From: a virus
Virus record (IMG/VR): IMGVR_UViG_3300035034_000577
Location: 1-34,657 of that record
Reading direction: 5' to 3' (one strand)
Length of the DNA: 34,657 nucleotides
In this document: positions 1,984-34,657 of the stretch, piece by piece
Numbering within the stretch: the first letter of the stretch is position 1
Layout: every line of letters begins with the position of its first letter
The notes under the pieces: model-generated
Databases searched by the model: none
Told to the model about the DNA's origin: nothing
What the model saw: only the letters and a program-made list of their open reading frames with translations
Translations under genes and position numbers: made by a program

Positions 1984-3237
1984 TTAAACAGCGGGTGGAT
2001 CATTTTGGAAACCCAGTTCAAGGTTTGCAATGGTAGATCGTGCGTAGAAGTCAGGGCTATCACCCAGCGACGTAGCAGTATCGGTGAAGCTGTGCAGCGC
2101 ATATCGAGTGCGCAACATGATACGGTGATCACCAGTTTCTGGGTTACGAACAACACCAGAAGACGCCAGTGGGATGTAAGGCATGTAAACCAGACCAGTA
2201 TCAACTTCACTACCTTTCAGACCCATCAGAATGGTGTCAGTTTCGGCATAAGGATCAACATAGACCTTGATCAGACCGCCGAAAGTACCAACAAACAGGC
2301 TGGTAGAAATTCGCAGATCACCAGTGCCAGCCGGAACAAAAGAACCATTTGATGCATTCTTCAGTGCAGTAAACACACGCTGAGAAACAACCATCCACGT
2401 AGCACCGGCTCGTTTGGTCTTCATCGCAATCTGTGCAGACAGGTTGTCAGCATGGATCGACAGCGCCGCCAGTTTTTCGCCAGCATATCGACCATCAATA
2501 TTTGCGAAATCCTGACTTTCAATCGTACCAGCCAGATCATTCATAGTGAAAATCAGTTCGCGGTCAAGTTCGCGCAGCAGCTGGTCGCCCAGAGTCTGGT
2601 TAACTTCAGTTTCAATGTCCAAACCGTCCATTGCTTGCAGATCGTCAGCAGACTCAAGTGAGTAAGAAGCACTCAACTTTCGGCTCATGGTGGTTGTGGC
2701 TTGAGTCACAACTTCCAAGTCCATCGGCTTACCACGGTTGCCTTCCAAGTATACAGTCTGCTGGAAGGGGTCAAGCATATCAACTTCGTCGTATGCGCCG
2801 CCCAGTGCCAGTTTAGAGTACTTGTCAAACACAGCCATACCAGATGCTTCAGTGCCAGCATCAATCGTATTGGGATCAACAGAACCGGCAGTAGGCAATG
2901 TATCTTGGCTGTAACGTGCACGAAGTGTTCGCGCAATACCGCGTGGGCTGTTAATCGGCTGAACACCAACCAGTTCCATTGCCAACAGAGCTGGCATCAC
3001 ACGTCGAACCAATGGCATAAACAGCATGTCATAGCGAGAAATGTTGGAGGTTACCGTTGAACCGGGAGCAGTTGATTCAACAAGGACTTCGTTGTTTTCA
3101 TCAGCTTTACCAACCACAGCCATATTTTCGCTGTGAGCAGTTTCCATCAGTCGGGTCATCATTCGGGTTTGCTTGTCATCGAGACCTTCCAAAAGGCCAT
3201 CTCGATACTCGCCCCAGTTTTTGTATTCTTGTGTCAT
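1984..3237 (-). CDS. 23: Major capsid protein, T4 gp23-like
   Basis: This 417-aa protein forms the icosahedral shell. It matches gp23 in several places: the LLRELDREL segment near residue 220, GRYAGEKLAAL (gp23 has a similar RWAGESFKAL), the central Trp/Ser-Arg-Val block, GLIKVYVDPYAETD (gp23 VYIDQYAKQD), DTGLVYMPYIPL, and a TRYAL segment near the C-terminus. LVE at residues 52-54 followed by Ser fits the gp21 cleavage consensus (Leu/Ile-x-Glu), suggesting removal of about 54 N-terminal residues on maturation; this is an inference. The start ATG follows CAGGAG. It has its own promoter (3268-3275) and terminator (1939-1967), fitting very high late expression. It lies directly after the scaffold gene, as in T4. 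Confidence 0.95.
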   Translation of the reverse strand: MTQEYKNWGEYRDGLLEGLDDKQTRMMTRLMETAHSENMAVVGKADENNEVLVESTAPGSTVTSNISRYDMLFMPLVRRVMPALLAMELVGVQPINSPRGIARTLRARYSQDTLPTAGSVDPNTIDAGTEASGMAVFDKYSKLALGGAYDEVDMLDPFQQTVYLEGNRGKPMDLEVVTQATTTMSRKLSASYSLESADDLQAMDGLDIETEVNQTLGDQLLRELDRELIFTMNDLAGTIESQDFANIDGRYAGEKLAALSIHADNLSAQIAMKTKRAGATWMVVSQRVFTALKNASNGSFVPAGTGDLRISTSLFVGTFGGLIKVYVDPYAETDTILMGLKGSEVDTGLVYMPYIPLASSGVVRNPETGDHRIMLRTRYALHSFTDTATSLGDSPDFYARSTIANLELGFQNDPPAV

Positions 3238-3299: not shown

Positions 3300-4115
3300 T
3301 TAACTTACGGTTTTCTTTGCAAACTGGGTAGACTTATTCAGTTTTTCGTAAATACGCTTCATACGGATGTCTACGTCTTTGTCTGTTTCAGTCTCTTCAA
3401 TAACAACTACGGGGGTTGACGTTTTGTTTTCGTTCAACTGTTTATCGTCTTCATCAACGATACCAAGATTAGCTTCGGTCAACAGAGGTAGAACGCGTTC
3501 AAATTTTTCATCAAGTCGATCAAAAGGCGTATCTTCAAGGATATTCATCGCAACAGTTTTCTTCTTACCAGTCAGCGACTCAGTCAATTCTTCGATTTTC
3601 GCAGCCTTATGCAAGCTTTCCAATTCTGCTTTTGCTTCAGCCAGTTCTTTCAGTGTATCCACATCGGCTCCGCCAAACAAAACGGCATAACCTTCGCCGA
3701 AAGATTCGATCAGCTTCTGAACAAAGGCATACTTTCGAGCAACTTCAATCTCGTCTTTCATCTCGGAAACGATTTCATCAACCGTTTCGCTAATGAGAGC
3801 CGCCGCTTCGGTACGCTGATTTTCTGCATACTCTTCCTTGAAAGTTTCCAGTTCCGACTCGTATCGAACTTCTTGAGTACGAGATTCAACCAGTTCCGCT
3901 TGGATTTCGTTTGTAATTTCTTCAATCGCTTCATCGATTGCTTGTGCAGTCGCTTCGCGCAATGTCTGAGTGGCTTCTTCAAGCTTTTGGGTATACTCTT
4001 CTTCCAGAGTAATAGTTTGAGCTGCGATAGATGCATCGAATGCTTCCTGAAGGACAACTTTGGTCTCTTCATTCAGCAATTCGCTATCCATCAGCGATTT
4101 AATTTCTTTTGACAT
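3300..4115 (-). CDS. 22: Prohead core scaffold protein, T4 gp22-like
   Basis: This 271-aa protein is dominated by Glu-rich helices and sits between protease and capsid genes, the gp22 position in T4. Residues 3-30 (KEIKSLMDSELLNEETKVVL and onward) resemble the start of gp22 family scaffolds. Long helices run to about residue 200; a hydrophobic helix with an FGEGYAVLFGG segment lies near residue 150. Many x-x-Glu sites would allow the prohead protease to degrade it, as happens to gp22. A TTG 15 bases further upstream is in frame, but ATG at 4115 is preferred because CAGGAG stands at the right spacing. In the T4 model the core assembles on the portal, guides the shell and is then cleaved. Confidence 0.88.
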   Translation of the reverse strand: MSKEIKSLMDSELLNEETKVVLQEAFDASIAAQTITLEEEYTQKLEEATQTLREATAQAIDEAIEEITNEIQAELVESRTQEVRYESELETFKEEYAENQRTEAAALISETVDEIVSEMKDEIEVARKYAFVQKLIESFGEGYAVLFGGADVDTLKELAEAKAELESLHKAAKIEELTESLTGKKKTVAMNILEDTPFDRLDEKFERVLPLLTEANLGIVDEDDKQLNENKTSTPVVVIEETETDKDVDIRMKRIYEKLNKSTQFAKKTVS

Positions 4116-4143
4116 TTTCGTCTCCTGCAATGAGTATTTGTTT

Positions 4144-4153: not shown

Positions 4154-4783
4154 TTATTTAGATAATCGCGAAATAAACTTTCGCAATTCAATCTGAAGGT
4201 ATTTCTGAGCTAATGAGTCATGAACAGCAGCTTCAGCCAAATCGGTTATAATTGAACCGTTTTTCCCCATCTGAAGTTGTTCTTCAATTGTTTCTGGATA
4301 CGCCAATCGACATGACGGGGTTGCCACTGCATCAATTGTTTTCAATTTAAAGTTTTTCACCGCACCAGTGGTTTTATTAAGTTCACCAGCTGCGCGACTA
4401 GACATCCCTACTCGCACGTTATCCAGAATCAGTCCACGCAGAATCTGTCCCATTGGATGATTCTCAAGAACCTCTACTTTACCGATTGCTTTGTTACCAT
4501 CCATATAGAGTTCTACGATCTTATGTGAGACATTTTTTAGTGATATATCAAGTGTATGTGGATGATCAAGTTCACCAAGGACAGACCCTAGTTTTGCTTG
4601 TTCATTCAACATACCTACTTCGCGGGTCATTTCCGCGACATCATATGTTCGTCCATTTCGATTTTTCGCGACAGCTTCCATCAAGACGCCCTTCATATAG
4701 AGCTTCTTTTTCTTGGTGCCATCAACACCAGCTTCTTCCAAAATCTCAGAACTTATGTCAAAATTTTCTTCAATAAGAATCAT
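4154..4783 (-). CDS. 21: Prohead core protease, T4 gp21-like (family U9/S78)
   Basis: A 209-aa serine protease of the phage maturation type, close to the length of T4 gp21 (212 aa). Catalytic residues are visible in conserved context: His74 in GELDHPHT, Ser128 in GMSSRAAGEL, and a probable third member Asp151 in KTIDAVATPSC. The LYMKGVLMEA and NRNGRTY segments near residues 28-47 are typical of the N-terminal beta strands. It would cleave scaffold and capsid precursors inside the prohead. The gene is followed by scaffold and capsid genes exactly as in T4, but is separated from the portal gene by two genes that are not recognisable gp67/gp68. The SD is weak (GCGAAG) and the start ATG is at 4783. 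Confidence 0.93.
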   Translation of the reverse strand: MILIEENFDISSEILEEAGVDGTKKKKLYMKGVLMEAVAKNRNGRTYDVAEMTREVGMLNEQAKLGSVLGELDHPHTLDISLKNVSHKIVELYMDGNKAIGKVEVLENHPMGQILRGLILDNVRVGMSSRAAGELNKTTGAVKNFKLKTIDAVATPSCRLAYPETIEEQLQMGKNGSIITDLAEAAVHDSLAQKYLQIELRKFISRLSK

Positions 4784-4866: not shown

Positions 4867-5481
4867 TTATTTGATGTTCGCAACCATCCCAGATTCCAGC
4901 TTAGCCAATTCTTTTTCAATGCTCGTTAAGCGACCTTCTTCGGCAGCATCCAACATCACTTCAAATCGACCCATAGTACGGGGATTGACGTTTGCCAAGA
5001 CGGATTTGTTAGTTGGGTCAATCAAAAACGCATTAAAGGCAGCAGCAGCTTGTTGTTGTTTTTGAGTCAACATTTTGAGTGCACGAGAGTTTCTGGATAA
5101 TAGTTCATCTCTGGATGCTTCCGGTGCGGATATAATTTTCTTAAGGATATCATCTCTCTTATCAGTCGAATCTTTGAGAGCTGAGTGAAGTTTTGACAGT
5201 TGTCGTTTTTCAACCCCAGCCTTTGCTAATGTTGCTAAAATTTCAGTTGCGAGCAAACTTCCAGCACCAACCATAACCGCGACCTTAGCAGAGCCAGTCA
5301 TAGCACTCGCAATAGTAGCAGTCATCGCAATGGGAAGACCCAAGAATCGAACTACAGTTTTAGTGAAGTCGCCCATTGCAGACTCATTCAACGCATCTTC
5401 ATCGAGGGTGTTGGTGGCTCCGGGTGCTAACCGTTCCGCGAACTCTTTTCGAACAAGCACATCAATTTCAGTTTTATTCAT
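4867..5481 (-). CDS. Hypothetical protein with hydrophobic centre
   Basis: An unrecognised 204-aa protein (208 aa if the in-frame ATG at 5493 is used). The ATG at 5481 has a GGAT-type SD upstream, while the 5493 start has none visible. Residues about 42-85 form a small-residue-rich hydrophobic stretch (LPIAMTATIASAMTGSAKV, then VMVGAGSLLATEILATLA), long enough for one hairpin or two membrane-like helices. The C-terminal half is helical and charged, with KMLTQKQQQAAAAFNAFLID and a terminal coiled-coil-like helix. It lies between the copper-monooxygenase-like gene and the protease, where T4 carries gp67 and gp68, so a head-core role is possible. The hydrophobic centre instead suggests a membrane-interacting protein. 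Confidence 0.75.
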   Translation of the reverse strand: MNKTEIDVLVRKEFAERLAPGATNTLDEDALNESAMGDFTKTVVRFLGLPIAMTATIASAMTGSAKVAVMVGAGSLLATEILATLAKAGVEKRQLSKLHSALKDSTDKRDDILKKIISAPEASRDELLSRNSRALKMLTQKQQQAAAAFNAFLIDPTNKSVLANVNPRTMGRFEVMLDAAEEGRLTSIEKELAKLESGMVANIK

Positions 5482-5515
5482 AATACAATCCATTATTTTG
5501 ATATCAAGATACGTT

Positions 5516-5535: not shown

Positions 5536-6489
5536 TCAATTTAAATTGTGATAAGAGAAATATCCAATGAACATCTCGTCCCAACTTTGTAGTCCTCCGG
5601 TTGACATTACCGTTGGGTCTGGATTACCCAGATTATATTCGGAGTTATCAAACAACCCCTCTACGATTACCCGAGAACCAGCTGGGATCAACATGGGTTC
5701 GTCCGCTCGATACGTTGGTTGCCATGCAAAATTATAATCCGGAACATTGATAATCTGTTCTTGAGTGCCATCAGGATATATCACCCGAGCTGCCATTGAT
5801 TTCCCTCGATAATGCATATGAGCACGAAAGCCGTATAGCATAATAGCTTCGTCAAACACATGCGTTGCAGCGGATTCATACTCCATTGCACCAGCCGGTA
5901 TTGAAATTTGACTCATTGGCGTCGATACGGAGTACGTATGATATTCATATTTGGGTGGAGTCTGTTCATCTGCGAACCATAAACCAACGCGTGTACTGTC
6001 AGTCGTTTCTTGACCAAATGAGGTATAGTGGATACTCATTCGCAACGCTGAACCGTTTGGAACATAAATGCCGGTATTATCTGGAAACTCGGTTGCATAC
6101 TCCTTACCCGGAGCATACCCCTCCAAAAACTCACGGCGCGGATCATTAACGGTTTCATCCAACATACCCTCACCCGCATCTGGTGTGTCCGCAACTACAT
6201 ACGAAAGTAAATGGTGGAGAACACGTTTATCGCCGGGGATAAACTGAACTGCTTGAATCCATTTGTCTTCGCCGAATTCAAGTGGAATAACCGAGTCGAT
6301 ATAATCGATAACACCCGTAGCGGGTACATTGAAGCTTGGGACGTCCACGATTACGTCCGGAGAAGTTCCGTTATAAAACCACTCATTGGTGATTGCATCA
6401 ACTTCTGTTAGTGGGTCGGTCTGAGCACTAGAATAAAAAGCGGCAACCGCCATTAAACATCCGATGATACCTATAATAATCTTCTTCAT
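5536..6489 (-). CDS. Exported type II copper, ascorbate-dependent monooxygenase-like protein (PHM/DBM fold)
   Basis: A 317-aa protein. Residues 1-22 are a Sec signal peptide (MKK, hydrophobic core, likely cut after Ala22 in SSA-Q), so the product should act in the periplasm or outside. The rest fits the two jelly-roll domains of peptidylglycine hydroxylating monooxygenase. Candidate CuH ligands are His92-His93 (RVLHHLLSYV) and His154 (MSIHYT). Candidate CuM ligands are His224 and His226 (FRAHMHYRGKSM) and Met306 (WDEMFIGYF). The spacings of 61, 70 and 80 residues compare with 64, 70 and 70 in rat PHM. Segments such as YNFAWQPTYR, GLFDNSEYNLGNPDPT and EDKWIQAVQF match the Cu2-monooxygenase regions of bacterial multidomain proteins, but the cytochrome or thioredoxin-like parts are absent. 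The only Cys is in the signal peptide, so the disulfides of animal PHM are missing. The gene begins 15 bases after the portal stop with SD AAGGA, hence portal-coupled late expression. Family assignment is strong; the substrate and any virion role are unknown. Confidence 0.85.
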   Translation of the reverse strand: MKKIIIGIIGCLMAVAAFYSSAQTDPLTEVDAITNEWFYNGTSPDVIVDVPSFNVPATGVIDYIDSVIPLEFGEDKWIQAVQFIPGDKRVLHHLLSYVVADTPDAGEGMLDETVNDPRREFLEGYAPGKEYATEFPDNTGIYVPNGSALRMSIHYTSFGQETTDSTRVGLWFADEQTPPKYEYHTYSVSTPMSQISIPAGAMEYESAATHVFDEAIMLYGFRAHMHYRGKSMAARVIYPDGTQEQIINVPDYNFAWQPTYRADEPMLIPAGSRVIVEGLFDNSEYNLGNPDPTVMSTGGLQSWDEMFIGYFSYHNLN

Positions 6490-6504: not shown

Positions 6505-8022
6505 TTAAAAACCAGTTGAGGCATCTTTTGCGGCAACGCCATACTTTTCTCCTAAAGACGCATCGCCATAAACAATATTGCGAATTTCCGTTTCGCTCAT
6601 TTTCTTAATATCAGCATCTAGGAGACCCATTTCATATAGTTTCTCAATCTCATTATCAGCAAGTTGATCTTGATCCATGTTAAGATACTTCTGCAATGCA
6701 TACCGTTTAGACAGTTGTGGCATAGACAATGTACTGGAAAATATATTCAACATCTGTTGATTCAGTTCCATTTCTTTGTACAGTCCAAACGAATTTGATT
6801 CGTTGATCACCAAGTTCATCTCGACTGGTATGACTATCTCTCGTGTAGTACAAAACTTTCTGAAATTGGATTCTAAATCAGGTTCAATATCACGCTTGAT
6901 TCTCGCACAGAAGCCCATATAACGAACTTCGATTTGATATACCTGTCCCACTCGCATGTCATTAAACTGATTTTGTTGATCACCATAAGTATCAATCATT
7001 GAGTTCGGAATTCGCAGACCAGCCGCCATTTTTTTTGCGAACCACTCAACATCACCCATTTCACCGAGACCAGCGCCACCGGGAAGTGTCTCCACCCGAG
7101 AACCTTTACCCGTTGAGTTTGTTGGAATGAAAATGTCTTCTGAGGTGGAATGTGGATCATATTCGGCATCGACGCTACCAGACTTGTTTGCGTTCTTCTG
7201 CATCAATCGAATGCGTTGACGTTCAATGGAAGCCTCTCTCTTTGGCCCTTGTAGGTTACCTACGTCAATATAATAAACTCGACGCTCTGGTGCACGTACA
7301 ACCCTGTATATCACAACAGCTGACTCAAGGAGAGCCATTTGCTTCCACACGGAGTACACCGTTTCGACAAGCGATTGACCGAATGGCCCTTCGCCGATCT
7401 TCATGATCACCAATTCATCAACAGGAATAACCTCTTCAACACTATTCGACGATTGGGTGAATGCTGGATTTCGACGATGTTGATAATTTCGTCCATGTTT
7501 ATCGAGCCTCGGAATGGACGGATCATATATATAATGGGTTATCAAGTCCTCGTCATCTTCACTAATAATATACCCAACCATACGTTCAGTTGGAAGTTCT
7601 TTTAGGGTGCCGTCAGGTTGTTCTCGAAAGAACACCGCTCCATATTTCAGTGCTTTTCGTGTACGATGGAACAACTTGGCTTCCATTTTTGTGCGTTTTT
7701 GCCATAAATCTTTTGCAAGTTTAATGAGCTTTAGTGTAGTTTTGTTGATTTTGTAGTCATCGGGAAACTCAATATTGAACAACTCTTCGTCATCTGCGTT
7801 TGAAGAAGAAACGTCTTCTGCAATCATATCGAGTGCTCTTGCGATTTCAACCGACATTTGATCAGCTTCGTCATAGTTCTTCAGCCTTGCTCTCCGGTTA
7901 CCGGTATTATCTATGACTTTGTTATACCAAGTAGTAGAGACAGCGTAGTTTGAAATGCTATAGCCGTTGCCTCGATTCCCAAGGGTTACCGGGTTCCACT
8001 TATTTTCGAGAAGGTGTGTCAT
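6505..8022 (-). CDS. 20: Portal vertex protein, T4 gp20-like
   Basis: A 505-aa subunit (T4 gp20 is 524 aa) of the dodecameric ring through which DNA is packaged and to which the neck attaches. Recognisable gp20 features: the block ALLESAVVIYRVVRAPERRV (about residues 230-250), YIDVGNLQGPKREASIERQR just after it, the PGGAGLGEMGDVEWFAKKM segment with RIPNSMID (about 310-345), and the C-terminal helical crown region. The N-terminal wing region contains the acidic stretch SSSNADDEELFNIEFPDD. It is first in the head operon. The ATG at 8022 follows AAGG, and transcription starts at the late promoter 8055-8062, half of a divergent palindromic promoter. The gp67 and gp68 genes that follow gp20 in T4 are not recognisable here. 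Confidence 0.95.
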   Translation of the reverse strand: MTHLLENKWNPVTLGNRGNGYSISNYAVSTTWYNKVIDNTGNRRARLKNYDEADQMSVEIARALDMIAEDVSSSNADDEELFNIEFPDDYKINKTTLKLIKLAKDLWQKRTKMEAKLFHRTRKALKYGAVFFREQPDGTLKELPTERMVGYIISEDDEDLITHYIYDPSIPRLDKHGRNYQHRRNPAFTQSSNSVEEVIPVDELVIMKIGEGPFGQSLVETVYSVWKQMALLESAVVIYRVVRAPERRVYYIDVGNLQGPKREASIERQRIRLMQKNANKSGSVDAEYDPHSTSEDIFIPTNSTGKGSRVETLPGGAGLGEMGDVEWFAKKMAAGLRIPNSMIDTYGDQQNQFNDMRVGQVYQIEVRYMGFCARIKRDIEPDLESNFRKFCTTREIVIPVEMNLVINESNSFGLYKEMELNQQMLNIFSSTLSMPQLSKRYALQKYLNMDQDQLADNEIEKLYEMGLLDADIKKMSETEIRNIVYGDASLGEKYGVAAKDASTGF

Positions 8023-8054: not shown

Positions 8055-8062
8055 TATTTATA
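8055..8062 (-). promoter_or_regulatory. T4-type late promoter of the head operon
   Basis: Exact TATAAATA on the minus strand, in the left arm of the palindrome, 32 bases before the portal ATG. Confidence 0.8.
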
Positions 8063-8088: not shown

Positions 8089-8622
8089 ATGCCACAAATA
8101 ACACGAACGATTGGTAAAGACTATTTAGATATGTATAGTGGGTACAACCAGCGTGATGTTGGCATGGGACTTCTTACGCCCAATATTTATGCAACCCCAG
8201 AGTACGCACGAAAGAAAGTTCAAAATCTGGTTATTGGTGGGGTATCTGATATCATCTATGCTGGTATGGAACATGATGCTCGACCAAAAATTCTGACGAT
8301 GGTGTATGAATCCGCGTATTCCACCATACTAGCGTACAACCTCAACTATTGCCCTCAACGAATGCGACAAGCGATATTGAAGTATGTGTTAGATAGTAAC
8401 GCAGCAAGAATTCGGTCGAATCAACCCATCATTGTTGATTACCATGCAATCAAAAAAGCAGTACCAGACAGTAAATACATTGTTCGTCGATACAAAGTAG
8501 TTGGGATAAACGTAAGGGAAACACTCCCACTTGTGGAATGGCCGGATGCGGTCAAGGCCAAAAGTCAGTGGGAGTCACATTACATGATGTTCAAAGATGC
8601 TTCCAGAAACAAAAAACGTTAA
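8089..8622 (+). CDS. Unrecognised late protein, lone plus-strand gene
   Basis: A 177-aa protein with no family I recognise. It starts with MPQITRTIGKDYLDMYSGYN. Its middle is helical (ILTMVYESAYSTILAYNLNY, then a basic helix with CPQRMRQAILKYV), and it contains basic segments IKKAVPDSKYIVRRYKVVG and a Lys/Arg-rich C-terminus. ATG at 8089 follows a strong GGAGG with a seven-base spacer. It is the only plus-strand gene between two minus-strand blocks and has its own late promoter, so it is probably a virion or assembly protein. Its length is near that of T4 tail-completion proteins such as gp3, but I see no sequence support for that. Its stop codon overlaps the stop of the convergent 8619 gene. 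Confidence 0.8.
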   Translation: MPQITRTIGKDYLDMYSGYNQRDVGMGLLTPNIYATPEYARKKVQNLVIGGVSDIIYAGMEHDARPKILTMVYESAYSTILAYNLNYCPQRMRQAILKYVLDSNAARIRSNQPIIVDYHAIKKAVPDSKYIVRRYKVVGINVRETLPLVEWPDAVKAKSQWESHYMMFKDASRNKKR

Positions 8623-9149
8623 ATGGCTGGATCACGCCCATTGAGATAGTCTTCTATTAAGTTGTCGGCAGTCACATATCGTGTATTGATTTCTGCAAAC
8701 GAAATCTTGTTGTCAACATAATTCCTAAGCAGAGTTTGGTTATTTTCGATATCAAACGTCTCAATTCTATCCATATTATTAGACAAAATAACCGCCATCA
8801 ATGGCTCATCTGATCCATTTTCTTCGTCTGGGATTTCTGCGATTTCGTCATAACTCATTTTTTCCAAGGGAGGACAAACCCCACTTAACATCAGAATCGC
8901 ATTACCGTCTCCGCCTTCAGCCAAATATAATTCAAGCTCATCCATGTAAAACGTAATTTGTGTCGCAGATACATATTTCGGATGTACTCCCTGACGAGCA
9001 AAGATTTCAATGCACATATTTTGTCGTCTTGGTATGCCACTAATTCCAGCATCAATGCAGAATCGAGACAATTTATCGTATGAGTCAATGCTGACTGGAA
9101 TGGTGACCCATGTCCAAATCTCGGATTCTTCTGTCTTGATATCACTCAT
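8619..9149 (-). CDS. Hypothetical protein, last gene of leftward operon
   Basis: An unrecognised 176-aa acidic protein. The N-terminal part (EIWTWVTIPVSIDSYDKLSR, then FCIDAGISGIPRRQNMCIEI) looks like an alpha/beta domain. The C-terminal half has an acidic linker (EIAEIPDEENGSDEP) and then a helical segment ending in DNLIEDYLNGRDPAI. An upstream TTG at 9161 is in frame, but ATG at 9149 is preferred because GGAG stands just upstream. It overlaps the end of the primase-polymerase gene by eight bases, indicating translational coupling and possibly a replication-related role. It converges on the 8089 gene: both stops are read from one TTAA at 8619-8622, leaving no space for a terminator between them. 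Confidence 0.8.
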   Translation of the reverse strand: MSDIKTEESEIWTWVTIPVSIDSYDKLSRFCIDAGISGIPRRQNMCIEIFARQGVHPKYVSATQITFYMDELELYLAEGGDGNAILMLSGVCPPLEKMSYDEIAEIPDEENGSDEPLMAVILSNNMDRIETFDIENNQTLLRNYVDNKISFAEINTRYVTADNLIEDYLNGRDPAI

Positions 9150-10554
9150 TATCTTCTCCAATTATAGAAATATTTTCAGTTTTATAAAATCCTTTCACTA
9201 TCTTTCCGCCTGTACAATCAATTTTACCATGGAAATCGATATACCCTTTTTCGTACAAAGTTGTTTTTGCTATAGACACAGTGGGGGTACTCACGCCACA
9301 CCATGTACTTCCGAAATTCGACGAAAAAATAGTCTTGCCATCGTAGCCGTCGTACAAATTCTTTATCGCATCCAAAATCAAAATCCCGTTTGCAACCTTC
9401 TGATGTGCTTTCGTTAAGCGATCAGAGGATAAGTACTTTTTCATTACATTGTCCAAACTAAGAATCTCTGCATCATAAAGCATTCGCAGAAACCACATAG
9501 TAAACACGCCTTTTTTTACTCGCGGAACATCGCCATTCGTTTTCATCACCAGATACAGCCTAACCACATTATAATCGATGTTCTGGTGTGTACTCGCAAA
9601 GTGATTAGAAAAGTCTCTGACGAGCAGGTGAGAGCCATCTTGTGACCATCTCGTTGCCATTGATGGACTTTCATCATCATGACTTGGAATAACCGAGTGA
9701 AACCGTTTCGACCTTCCGTCTGCCAGTGGTATACCAATCTGGAGAAACTCAGCAAGTTTCAGTTGTATTTCTCTGTTATGGAAAATTCTATTTATCGACG
9801 ATGACGAAAGGCTTCCTTTGTCGCAATGCAGTTTACCATCAACAAGTAAGCTTTCATCGTGATCAGCCTTTTCAAATTCGTTGGTGGTATGAGCATACAT
9901 CGTTTGGGTTGCAGCAGGATGCAAAATTTCGCCGGTAGATAAATCAACAGTTTCTTCTGTCAGAACGTTGGTGTGTTTTGTTCGTGAAGTTCGCCTTTCA
10001 ATCTCATTGGCGACAGCTGTTATAACACTGAGTTCATTAACCAACAGATTGAAAGTCTCCACATCAAAATCAGGGAGATTCCACATTTTTTCCCATGGTT
10101 TCCCATCATCGTCATCTGATATGTAGTTCTTTTCGTCGGGGAGTATACTGTATCCCCCATCTGCCAACAGATCAACAAACGCCAATGGTCTAATCTGCCT
10201 TCGCATTTTTTCATTCTGGTTGAAGTAGTAATGACGACCACCAGATTGTGTGGTTACCGATAACAAATTTTCAATGTTTTTTGTTGTTCGAGCAAAAAAC
10301 ATCTTAATGATGTTCTCCGCAAAGAATGAACTGATTGGGTCGTTTTGATTGTAATCGCCGTCAATGATTATGAATTGATCATTTGGTGATGCTATTAGTG
10401 CGTTCTCGTTGGTTGTCCACCACTCGCGGATTTGCGTCTCTGATGTGGTGGCTAGTCGAAAAGACTTTTTGAAATATGGCATCTTTTTTTCGTTGACTGG
10501 GAATATGTTTACCCCGTTTCTTGCGTACTCAAGTGCTATTTCCAGTTGTGTCAT
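9142..10554 (-). CDS. Primase-polymerase (Prim-Pol domain) protein
   Basis: A 470-aa protein. Residues 1-140 carry the bifunctional primase/polymerase N-terminal domain of the archaeo-eukaryotic primase superfamily: ALEYARNGVNIFPV with a Lys-Pro-type substrate segment, IREWWTTNENALIASP, the metal-binding pair Asp65/Asp67 in IIIDGD, SGGRHYYF (residues 104-111, nucleotide-binding His), and VDLLADGGYSILP with Asp128 and the DGGY signature. The remaining 330 residues have an acidic linker and a C-terminal domain that may be a helical or winged-helix region (FGSTWCGVSTPTVSIAKTTL). It would make primers or copy DNA for the phage. Its start overlaps the RuvC-like gene by 26 bases, and its end overlaps the next gene by 8. 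T4 itself uses an unrelated DnaG-type primase (gp61). Confidence 0.85.
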   Translation of the reverse strand: MTQLEIALEYARNGVNIFPVNEKKMPYFKKSFRLATTSETQIREWWTTNENALIASPNDQFIIIDGDYNQNDPISSFFAENIIKMFFARTTKNIENLLSVTTQSGGRHYYFNQNEKMRRQIRPLAFVDLLADGGYSILPDEKNYISDDDDGKPWEKMWNLPDFDVETFNLLVNELSVITAVANEIERRTSRTKHTNVLTEETVDLSTGEILHPAATQTMYAHTTNEFEKADHDESLLVDGKLHCDKGSLSSSSINRIFHNREIQLKLAEFLQIGIPLADGRSKRFHSVIPSHDDESPSMATRWSQDGSHLLVRDFSNHFASTHQNIDYNVVRLYLVMKTNGDVPRVKKGVFTMWFLRMLYDAEILSLDNVMKKYLSSDRLTKAHQKVANGILILDAIKNLYDGYDGKTIFSSNFGSTWCGVSTPTVSIAKTTLYEKGYIDFHGKIDCTGGKIVKGFYKTENISIIGEDNE

Positions 10555-33654: not shown

Positions 33655-34657
33655 ATGAGCATTCACTTAAACGATAATGGCACACTACGTAAAATAAAAC
33701 CCGCAATTGTGAATCACAACGGAGTTTTGCGTCGTGTGGGCAGAATTTACGTGAATGATGGCGGAGTAATCCGACAAGTTTTTTCCAACGTAGTTCAAAC
33801 AACGGTTTCGGTTGGCGTTAGTTTTAATACGACGACTACATGGAACACGACCGCTCAAACCACGACTACGTTTAACACGACCGCTCAAACCACGACTACG
33901 TTTAACACGACTGCAAACGCAGGGGCAGTCGTTAACACATCAGTTCAAACCACGACTACGGTTAACACAAGTCGGATGACTACTGTTGTGTTTAACACAA
34001 GTCGGATGACTACTGCTACATGGAACACAACCGTCAACACCACAACGATGGTTAACACATCAGTTCAAACCACGACTACTCGTCCTACGACTCGTTTAAC
34101 AACGACTACGTTTAACGCAAGTCGGATGACTACTGCTACATGGAACACAAGTCATACAACAACTGTCTCATATACCACGACATATAATACTAACGTAGAG
34201 ACAACACGGGTAACGCAGACTTTTGCGTCTACGACTTCTCAACGACAAACCGTTAGGTATTCAGATACACCAGTAAACGTTACTCGTTTAACCGCGAAAG
34301 CGTTTAACCGACAGACATATGATAGAGAAACATCTTGGTACACAGCTTCACCCACATCAAGAGTCACAACAGTTGAAGTTGTGTACGAAACGCAACTAAC
34401 TAACATTAATACGTTTGAGCCTACGTATCGCGAGACTACACGGCTTTCATCGAGAACAACAACATACAATACATCTAAACTTACGAGTCAATCACTGTAT
34501 CGAAACACGGTTTTCTACTCAAATGTTCAAACGAGTTACATATCATATCGAGCCGATCCAGTATATTACAATACAACGGTAACGTATAATACGTGGTATA
34601 ATACAACGTATAGTATGCTTACTACAGCGCAGACTTCTCATGTAACAAATGTACAGG
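33655..34657 (+). CDS. Threonine-rich repeat fibre protein, partial
   Basis: Open from ATG at 33655 to the window edge (334 codons, no stop), so the end is missing. Residues 1-45 contain three copies of a short motif: LNDNGTLRKI, VNHNGVLRRV and VNDGGVIRQV, typical of phage fibre N-termini. From codon 63 (33841) the protein is built of ten-residue repeats encoded by 30-bp DNA units: WNTTAQTTTT, FNTTAQTTTT, VNTSVQTTTT, FNTSRMTTAT and others. At least ten fit the consensus aromatic/Val-Asn-Thr-Thr/Ser-x-x-Thr-Thr. After about residue 190 the repeats decay into a Thr/Tyr/Ser-rich tail without Gly or Pro periodicity. It is likely a fibrous virion appendage, folded as a repetitive beta structure. 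Confidence 0.8.
   Translation, partial: MSIHLNDNGTLRKIKPAIVNHNGVLRRVGRIYVNDGGVIRQVFSNVVQTTVSVGVSFNTTTTWNTTAQTTTTFNTTAQTTTTFNTTANAGAVVNTSVQTTTTVNTSRMTTVVFNTSRMTTATWNTTVNTTTMVNTSVQTTTTRPTTRLTTTTFNASRMTTATWNTSHTTTVSYTTTYNTNVETTRVTQTFASTTSQRQTVRYSDTPVNVTRLTAKAFNRQTYDRETSWYTASPTSRVTTVEVVYETQLTNINTFEPTYRETTRLSSRTTTYNTSKLTSQSLYRNTVFYSNVQTSYISYRADPVYYNTTVTYNTWYNTTYSMLTTAQTSHVTNVQ
33841..34200 (+). repeat. Tandem 30-bp coding repeats
   Basis: Twelve consecutive 30-bp units in frame, several nearly identical (for example 33841-33870 and 33871-33900; 33991-34020 and 34111-34140). They encode decapeptides that start with Trp, Phe or Val followed by Asn-Thr, apart from degenerate units at 34081-34110 and 34171-34200. 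Confidence 0.9.

Follow-up and report, generated by a model that had tools for sequence, protein, structure and literature searches.

A PHM/DBM-fold two-copper monooxygenase-like gene in the head operon of a T4-like phage

The head operon and its phage context

The window, that is, the whole stretch of 34,657 nucleotides analysed here (IMG/VR record IMGVR_UViG_3300035034_000577), is, as judged from its genes, a fragment of a T4-like myovirus, a true phage. The head operon contains the following features.

1984–3237, minus strand: major capsid protein, gp23-like (Gp23 E 1e-67; 72% to Alishewanella phages)
3300–4130, minus strand: scaffold protein (39% to the syntenic Slickus01 protein)
4154–4783, minus strand: prohead protease, gp21-like (Peptidase_S77 E 4e-21)
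4867–5493, minus strand: small membrane-type protein directly downstream of the PHM-like gene (weak DUF7442 match; same position as a Slickus01 gene, L186)
5536–6489, minus strand: PHM/DBM-fold two-copper monooxygenase-like gene (317 aa, signal peptide predicted; Pfam, AlphaFold2 and PDB fold matches)
6505–8022, minus strand: portal protein, gp20-like (Portal_T4 E 2e-60), directly upstream of the PHM-like gene with 15 nt between
8055–8062, minus strand: T4-type late promoter motif TATAAATA, lying upstream of the head operon, which the portal gene leads and which contains the PHM-like gene

A preliminary description of this DNA had placed a copper monooxygenase-like reading frame among the head genes. 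The frame is real and its coordinates are exact; it lies on the minus strand, which that description did not state, and the order is portal, PHM-like gene, small protein, protease, scaffold and capsid. The window contains 11 copies of TATAAATA, compared with 1.9 expected, and none of 100 shuffles contained as many. Because one copy (8062–8055) precedes the portal gene and the PHM-like gene starts 15 nt past the portal stop, the PHM-like gene is very probably transcribed late, together with the head genes.

The closest cultured phages found are the Alishewanella phages Slicko01 and Slickus01 (141 kb). They share the gene order, but at the place of the PHM-like gene after the portal they carry an ORF of 116 aa that lacks a signal peptide. 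Elsewhere in the window, at 8619–10554, ORFs of 180 and 470 aa each match the same 683-aa Slickus01 protein, and what is a single gene there appears to have been split in two here. The contig starts (1–470) with an acid-rich repeat-coding stretch on the minus strand (TTCATC/TCTTCA repeats) and ends (33655–34656) in an open Thr/Asn-rich repeat ORF of TTTxNT units, downstream of baseplate and tail genes, where tandem repeats of 15, 30 and 120 bp are found.

Fold and copper sites

The protein begins with a Sec-type N-terminus, MKKIIIGIIGCLMAVAAFYSSAQ, and carries the putative copper ligands and pocket residues listed here.

6421–6489, minus strand: predicted Sec signal peptide, approximately residues 1–23 (low AlphaFold2 confidence; matched in position by classical Ala-rich signal peptides of the host orthologues)
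6211–6216, minus strand: H92-H93, predicted CuH ligands (invariant in 74/74; spacing as in PHM H107/H108)
6028–6030, minus strand: H154, predicted third CuH ligand (invariant in 74/74)
5812–5820, minus strand: H224-x-H226, predicted CuM ligands (invariant in 74/74; within the Cu2_monoox_C match)
5572–5574, minus strand: M306, predicted CuM ligand (invariant in 74/74)
5824–5826, minus strand: R222, at HxH minus 2, equivalent by offset to PHM Arg240 (Arg in the window protein and, without exception, in the hosts; the other phage subfamilies have Leu or Gln)
5560–5562, minus strand: Y310, at Met plus 4, equivalent by offset to PHM Tyr318 (varies jointly with R222)

The signal peptide and the ligand pattern had both been noticed before, and the translation bears them out: H224-M-H226 lies in the motif HMHYRGKSM and M306 in DEMFIGY. 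The only cysteine is C11, inside the signal peptide, as had also been stated. The mature protein is thus free of cysteine and lacks the disulfides of eukaryotic-type PHM.

A Pfam-A search returned one family for the phage protein, Cu2_monoox_C (PF03712; E 8.4e-7, 29 bits against a gathering cut-off of 23), over residues 206–314. The same match scored 31.4 bits in a six-frame search and was found in 58 of the 74 relatives discussed below. The N-terminal domain family, Cu2_monooxygen (PF01082), was not listed at E 0.1, and the fold alignment spans that half of the protein. A PHROGs profile search assigned no family, and BFVD gave no full-length PHM-like viral match. Searching PDB sequences with the phage protein or with the profile of its relatives did not retrieve PHM, so it is Pfam and fold that connect the protein with PHM; an aldolase match in that search was dismissed as chance.

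For structure prediction, AlphaFold2 was supplied with an alignment (A2) of 74 diverse relatives with identities down to 25%. The model is all-beta, with a mean pLDDT of 88.8. Of the PDB entries matched by Foldseek, the best 31 are without exception PHM or human dopamine beta-hydroxylase (DBH; best E 2.6e-14). In VIA-align, the model superposes on PHM with a Z of 22.4 (2.7 Å, 252 residues), and PHM and DBH fill the best 26 rows at Z 18–22, compared with 9.8 for the best unrelated fold. PNGase F-like folds, which reach Z 9, are expected remote jelly-roll kin. Model residues 41–317 align with PHM 55–327, covering both domains of a two-domain double jelly roll. For a cytochrome-type phage protein (L036) the model was poor (pLDDT 63.9), and PHM/DBH were still the best matches. 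A profile comparison of A2 with alignment A3 is partly circular, as A2 contains members of that group.

The copper ligands of PHM are H107, H108, H172, H242, H244 and M314 (PMC6123673), in agreement with those given for the rat enzyme in the preliminary description. The numbering of the phage model differs from that of PHM by 15 (H107), 18 (H172 and H242) and 8 (M314), which fits the offsets of 14 and 10 at the two ends of the fold alignment. At the level of sequence, the N-terminal domain offers three histidines for CuH (H92, H93, H154), and the C-terminal domain an HxH pair and a methionine for CuM (H224, H226, M306). Only 23 columns are invariant across all 74 sequences, and all six ligand positions are among them.

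The Pfam match, the invariant ligands in the 74 relatives and a pN/pS of approximately 0.14 against the host copy argue for more than a chance resemblance. By predicted fold and ligands, the phage protein is a member of the PHM/DBM (copper type II monooxygenase) superfamily, and the profile search and fold comparison that had been proposed as checks both indicate this fold. It shares with PHM and DBH the two-domain architecture (Z ~22 over ~250 residues) and the same six ligands at similar spacing, and with PHM also the Arg at HxH minus 2 and the Tyr at Met plus 4. Unlike them, it is only 16–18% identical, has no disulfides, leaves the N-terminal Pfam profile unmatched, and would be exported by a bacterium or phage with a likely redoxin–cytochrome c electron supply. 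We do not file it as PHM proper, because it lacks the conserved core disulfides and shares with the PHM substrate site only the Arg/Tyr pair, by position. The earlier label "copper, ascorbate-dependent monooxygenase-like" stands for fold and ligands; "ascorbate-dependent" is to be read here as a family name and not as a tested property, since the bacterial and phage relatives are tied to redoxin and cytochrome c domains.

Bacterial origin and viral relatives

Genome contigs yielded 521 confirmed stretches related to the phage protein. The closest are from Pseudohongiella and unnamed Gammaproteobacteria, with 76–79% identity over the full length including the signal peptide. In these bacteria, the operon order is PHM, redoxin–cytochrome c, PHM, PHM. 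The window protein falls inside the clade of host copy 1 (98/93), nearest to L113 and L114 (95/68). This nesting within copy 1 of the operon that Pseudohongiella shares with close Gammaproteobacteria, at up to 79% identity, indicates that the gene is host-derived, from the first operon gene of Pseudohongiella-like marine bacteria. Three other viral contigs (L001, L003, L004) group with a different Pseudohongiella subclade (98/98). The best tree separates them from the window phage, but a single clade is not rejected by the AU test (p 0.143), and both one capture and two appear compatible with these sequences. The gene has the marks of an auxiliary gene: it is nested among host sequences, lies in a true phage genome and is absent at that locus in Slickus01 and Slicko01. 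Its GC3 is phage-like (0.40, compared with ~0.6 in hosts), and the low pN/pS noted above points to purifying selection. From this one gene, the host of the phage is probably Pseudohongiellaceae-like.

Relatives are encoded on 104 IMG/VR contigs of uncultivated viruses, in many cases next to capsid, tail-tube or lysis genes. The preliminary description knew of no phage enzyme of this type, and our full-text search of the open literature likewise found no description of phage PHM-like proteins. The gene is not unique among phages. It appears to be the first phage gene of the PHM/DBM kind to be described. INPHARED gave no convincing relative, and the viral PHM-like relatives had no PHROG match.

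Most of the other viral relatives are tandem PHM-like genes of ~425 and 412 aa, and an N-terminal CxxCH (cytochrome c motif) is present in 129 of 130 long viral copies. At 11 viral loci, a stand-alone c-type cytochrome gene adjoins the PHM-like genes (e.g., L051:2138–2476; Pfam Cytochrom_C E 1e-7; no PHROG match for this type). Among 40 records checked, gp23 was found in 5 and terminase over the cut-off in 11. In the T4-like phages L012 (8358–10897), L043, L110 and L071, the gp23 and tail tube genes are separated by tandem cytochrome c–PHM genes, each time closely preceded by a late promoter motif, and in L005, L024 and L041 the PHM-like pair is near endolysin genes. Late promoter motifs lie 31–48 nt upstream of PHM-like genes at ten other viral loci; within 120 nt upstream, the motif is found for 11 of 130 PHM-like genes, compared with 1.8% of random windows.

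L001 and L004, as read from their sequences, are true phages: both encode a ribonucleotide reductase, and L004 also PhoH-like, ClpP-like and endolysin genes. Each has a four-gene cassette (L001:10001–13246; L004:5366–8598) of PHM, redoxin-like plus CxxCH, PHM and AhpC-type redoxin. The redoxin half of the second cassette protein is without its Cys, and an OmpA/Pal-like lipoprotein gene follows the cassette in both.

Proposed function and its alternatives

In PHM, Arg240 and Tyr318 contact the peptide substrate. We assigned the corresponding positions by anchoring on the copper ligands, and the pair covaries: the window protein, its orthologues and the host proteins without exception have R/Y, one phage subfamily has L/A and another Q/W. 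Since the ligands are invariant and these pairs change jointly, the substrate pocket appears to differ between subfamilies while the copper chemistry is conserved. Together, Arg222 and Tyr310 hint at a substrate with a carboxyl group.

We consider it probable that the window carries a phage-borne, exported two-copper PHM/DBM-fold monooxygenase, captured from the first gene of a Pseudohongiella-like PHM operon, placed in a T4-type head operon and made late. Starting from the fold, ligand set, origin, synteny and late-promoter setting, we infer the following course for export, copper loading, electron supply and catalysis. Through its insertion in the head operon, the protein would be synthesised late in infection and exported by Sec into the periplasm, where CuH (H92, H93, H154) and CuM (H224, H226, M306) would be loaded. 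No redoxin or cytochrome partner gene is present on the 34.7-kb phage fragment, and re-reduction would most likely come from a host-supplied redoxin–cytochrome c partner, as the operon and fusion partners suggest; such a partner would be phage-borne in L001 and L004 and fused in other viral relatives. Oxygen would be activated at CuM, leading to C–H hydroxylation of a small exported substrate. The benefit to the phage is most likely support of host periplasmic oxidation late in infection.

The operon position makes a structural role the main alternative, namely, a repurposed virion or head-assembly protein whose jelly roll serves in decoration or assembly and whose copper sites are relics. A gene between portal and protease, the position of PHM-like genes in other phages, with gp23 on one side and the tail tube gene on the other, and the late promoter motifs all accord with such a role, as does the fact that a double jelly roll could serve structurally and that capsid-adjacent genes often encode virion parts. 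However, the phage protein has a predicted signal peptide, its copper ligands are all invariant in phage copies, and it shares 79% identity with proteins that hosts encode in redoxin and cytochrome c operons. Moreover, the closest cultured phages build heads without such a gene, and related genes adjoin lysis genes in other phages. We regard the structural role as less likely than an enzyme and, taken alone, as improbable. Slightly less doubtful is a copper-handling or respiratory maturation factor, a periplasmic copper or electron shuttle acting with redoxin and cytochrome c rather than a hydroxylase. Its partners are indeed redoxin and cytochrome c domain proteins, with an extra stand-alone cytochrome c in some viral loci, but the full CuH and CuM ligand set and the subfamily-varying pocket pair indicate catalysis on differing substrates, and SCO or oxidase genes were not seen beside the host operons examined.

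An enzyme that modifies the cell envelope or exported peptides to a late advantage of the phage, such as during lysis or in the exclusion of superinfecting phages, is also unlikely, if the least so of these three. The late setting, the proximity of the gene pair to endolysin genes in L005, L024 and L041 and the resemblance of the Arg/Tyr pair to the peptide-binding residues of PHM speak for it, whereas the hosts have operons with these same genes, around which no phage or lysis context was seen. The neighbours of these operons (PEP synthase-like, NfeD, OYE, CstA and HupE genes) give no hint of the substrate. An artefact of assembly, or the fusion of host DNA with a phage contig, could account for the high identity to host proteins but is hardly credible: the phage genes on either flank share synteny with the Alishewanella phages, the protein diverges by ~21% from the hosts, and orthologues occur on independent viral contigs. 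The phage-like composition and the pN/pS of 0.14 argue against a fresh artefact, and host misassembly is rejected on the grounds of synteny and base composition.

The wider viral set is likely an auxiliary module that large aquatic phages commonly carry. More tentatively, and somewhat short of probable, large T4-like phages of aquatic Gammaproteobacteria may commonly carry a late periplasmic oxidation module in which dicopper PHM-fold enzymes, usually two in tandem, are combined with a c-type cytochrome and sometimes a redoxin. Such a module would amount to a virus-encoded copper–heme electron chain whose targets are exported substrates; the pockets would differ between subfamilies, and the window would be a reduced, recently captured case. 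PHM/DBM copper monooxygenases are familiar chiefly from the synthesis of hormones and transmitters in animals (peptide hormone finishing, noradrenaline). If the proposal is true, phage PHM/DBM enzymes with cytochrome c/redoxin partners in relatives would bring to viruses a chemistry that none of the sources searched describes for them, and would hint at an overlooked periplasmic oxidation that matters to abundant aquatic bacteria. The phage proteins also provide biochemists with small members of the fold that are free of disulfides, and their differing pocket residues make substrate specificity testable.

Among known systems, the phage pmoC/amoC auxiliary genes (PMC7674155) are comparable in being copper monooxygenase genes in phages, taken from aquatic hosts; they belong to an unrelated membrane enzyme family and encode one complex subunit, whereas the phage PHM-like protein would form a complete dicopper core. 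The tandem redoxin–cytochrome c–PHM fusions of OM182/Pseudomonadales (~590 aa) have the same PHM domain and ligands at 45–59% identity but, unlike the phage protein, hold three domains per chain in two genes in tandem. Closest is the Pseudohongiella PHM operon (L112–L124), for which no characterisation was found in the literature. The phage gene is orthologous to its copy 1 (up to 79% over the full length), and the phage fragment, unlike the operon, has the catalytic core alone. One such operon lies in a MAG labelled Rhodoferax (L117, CALQJO020000021.1); its copy 1 is identical to that of a gammaproteobacterial MAG (L118), and the Rhodoferax MAG is probably mis-binned or mislabelled.
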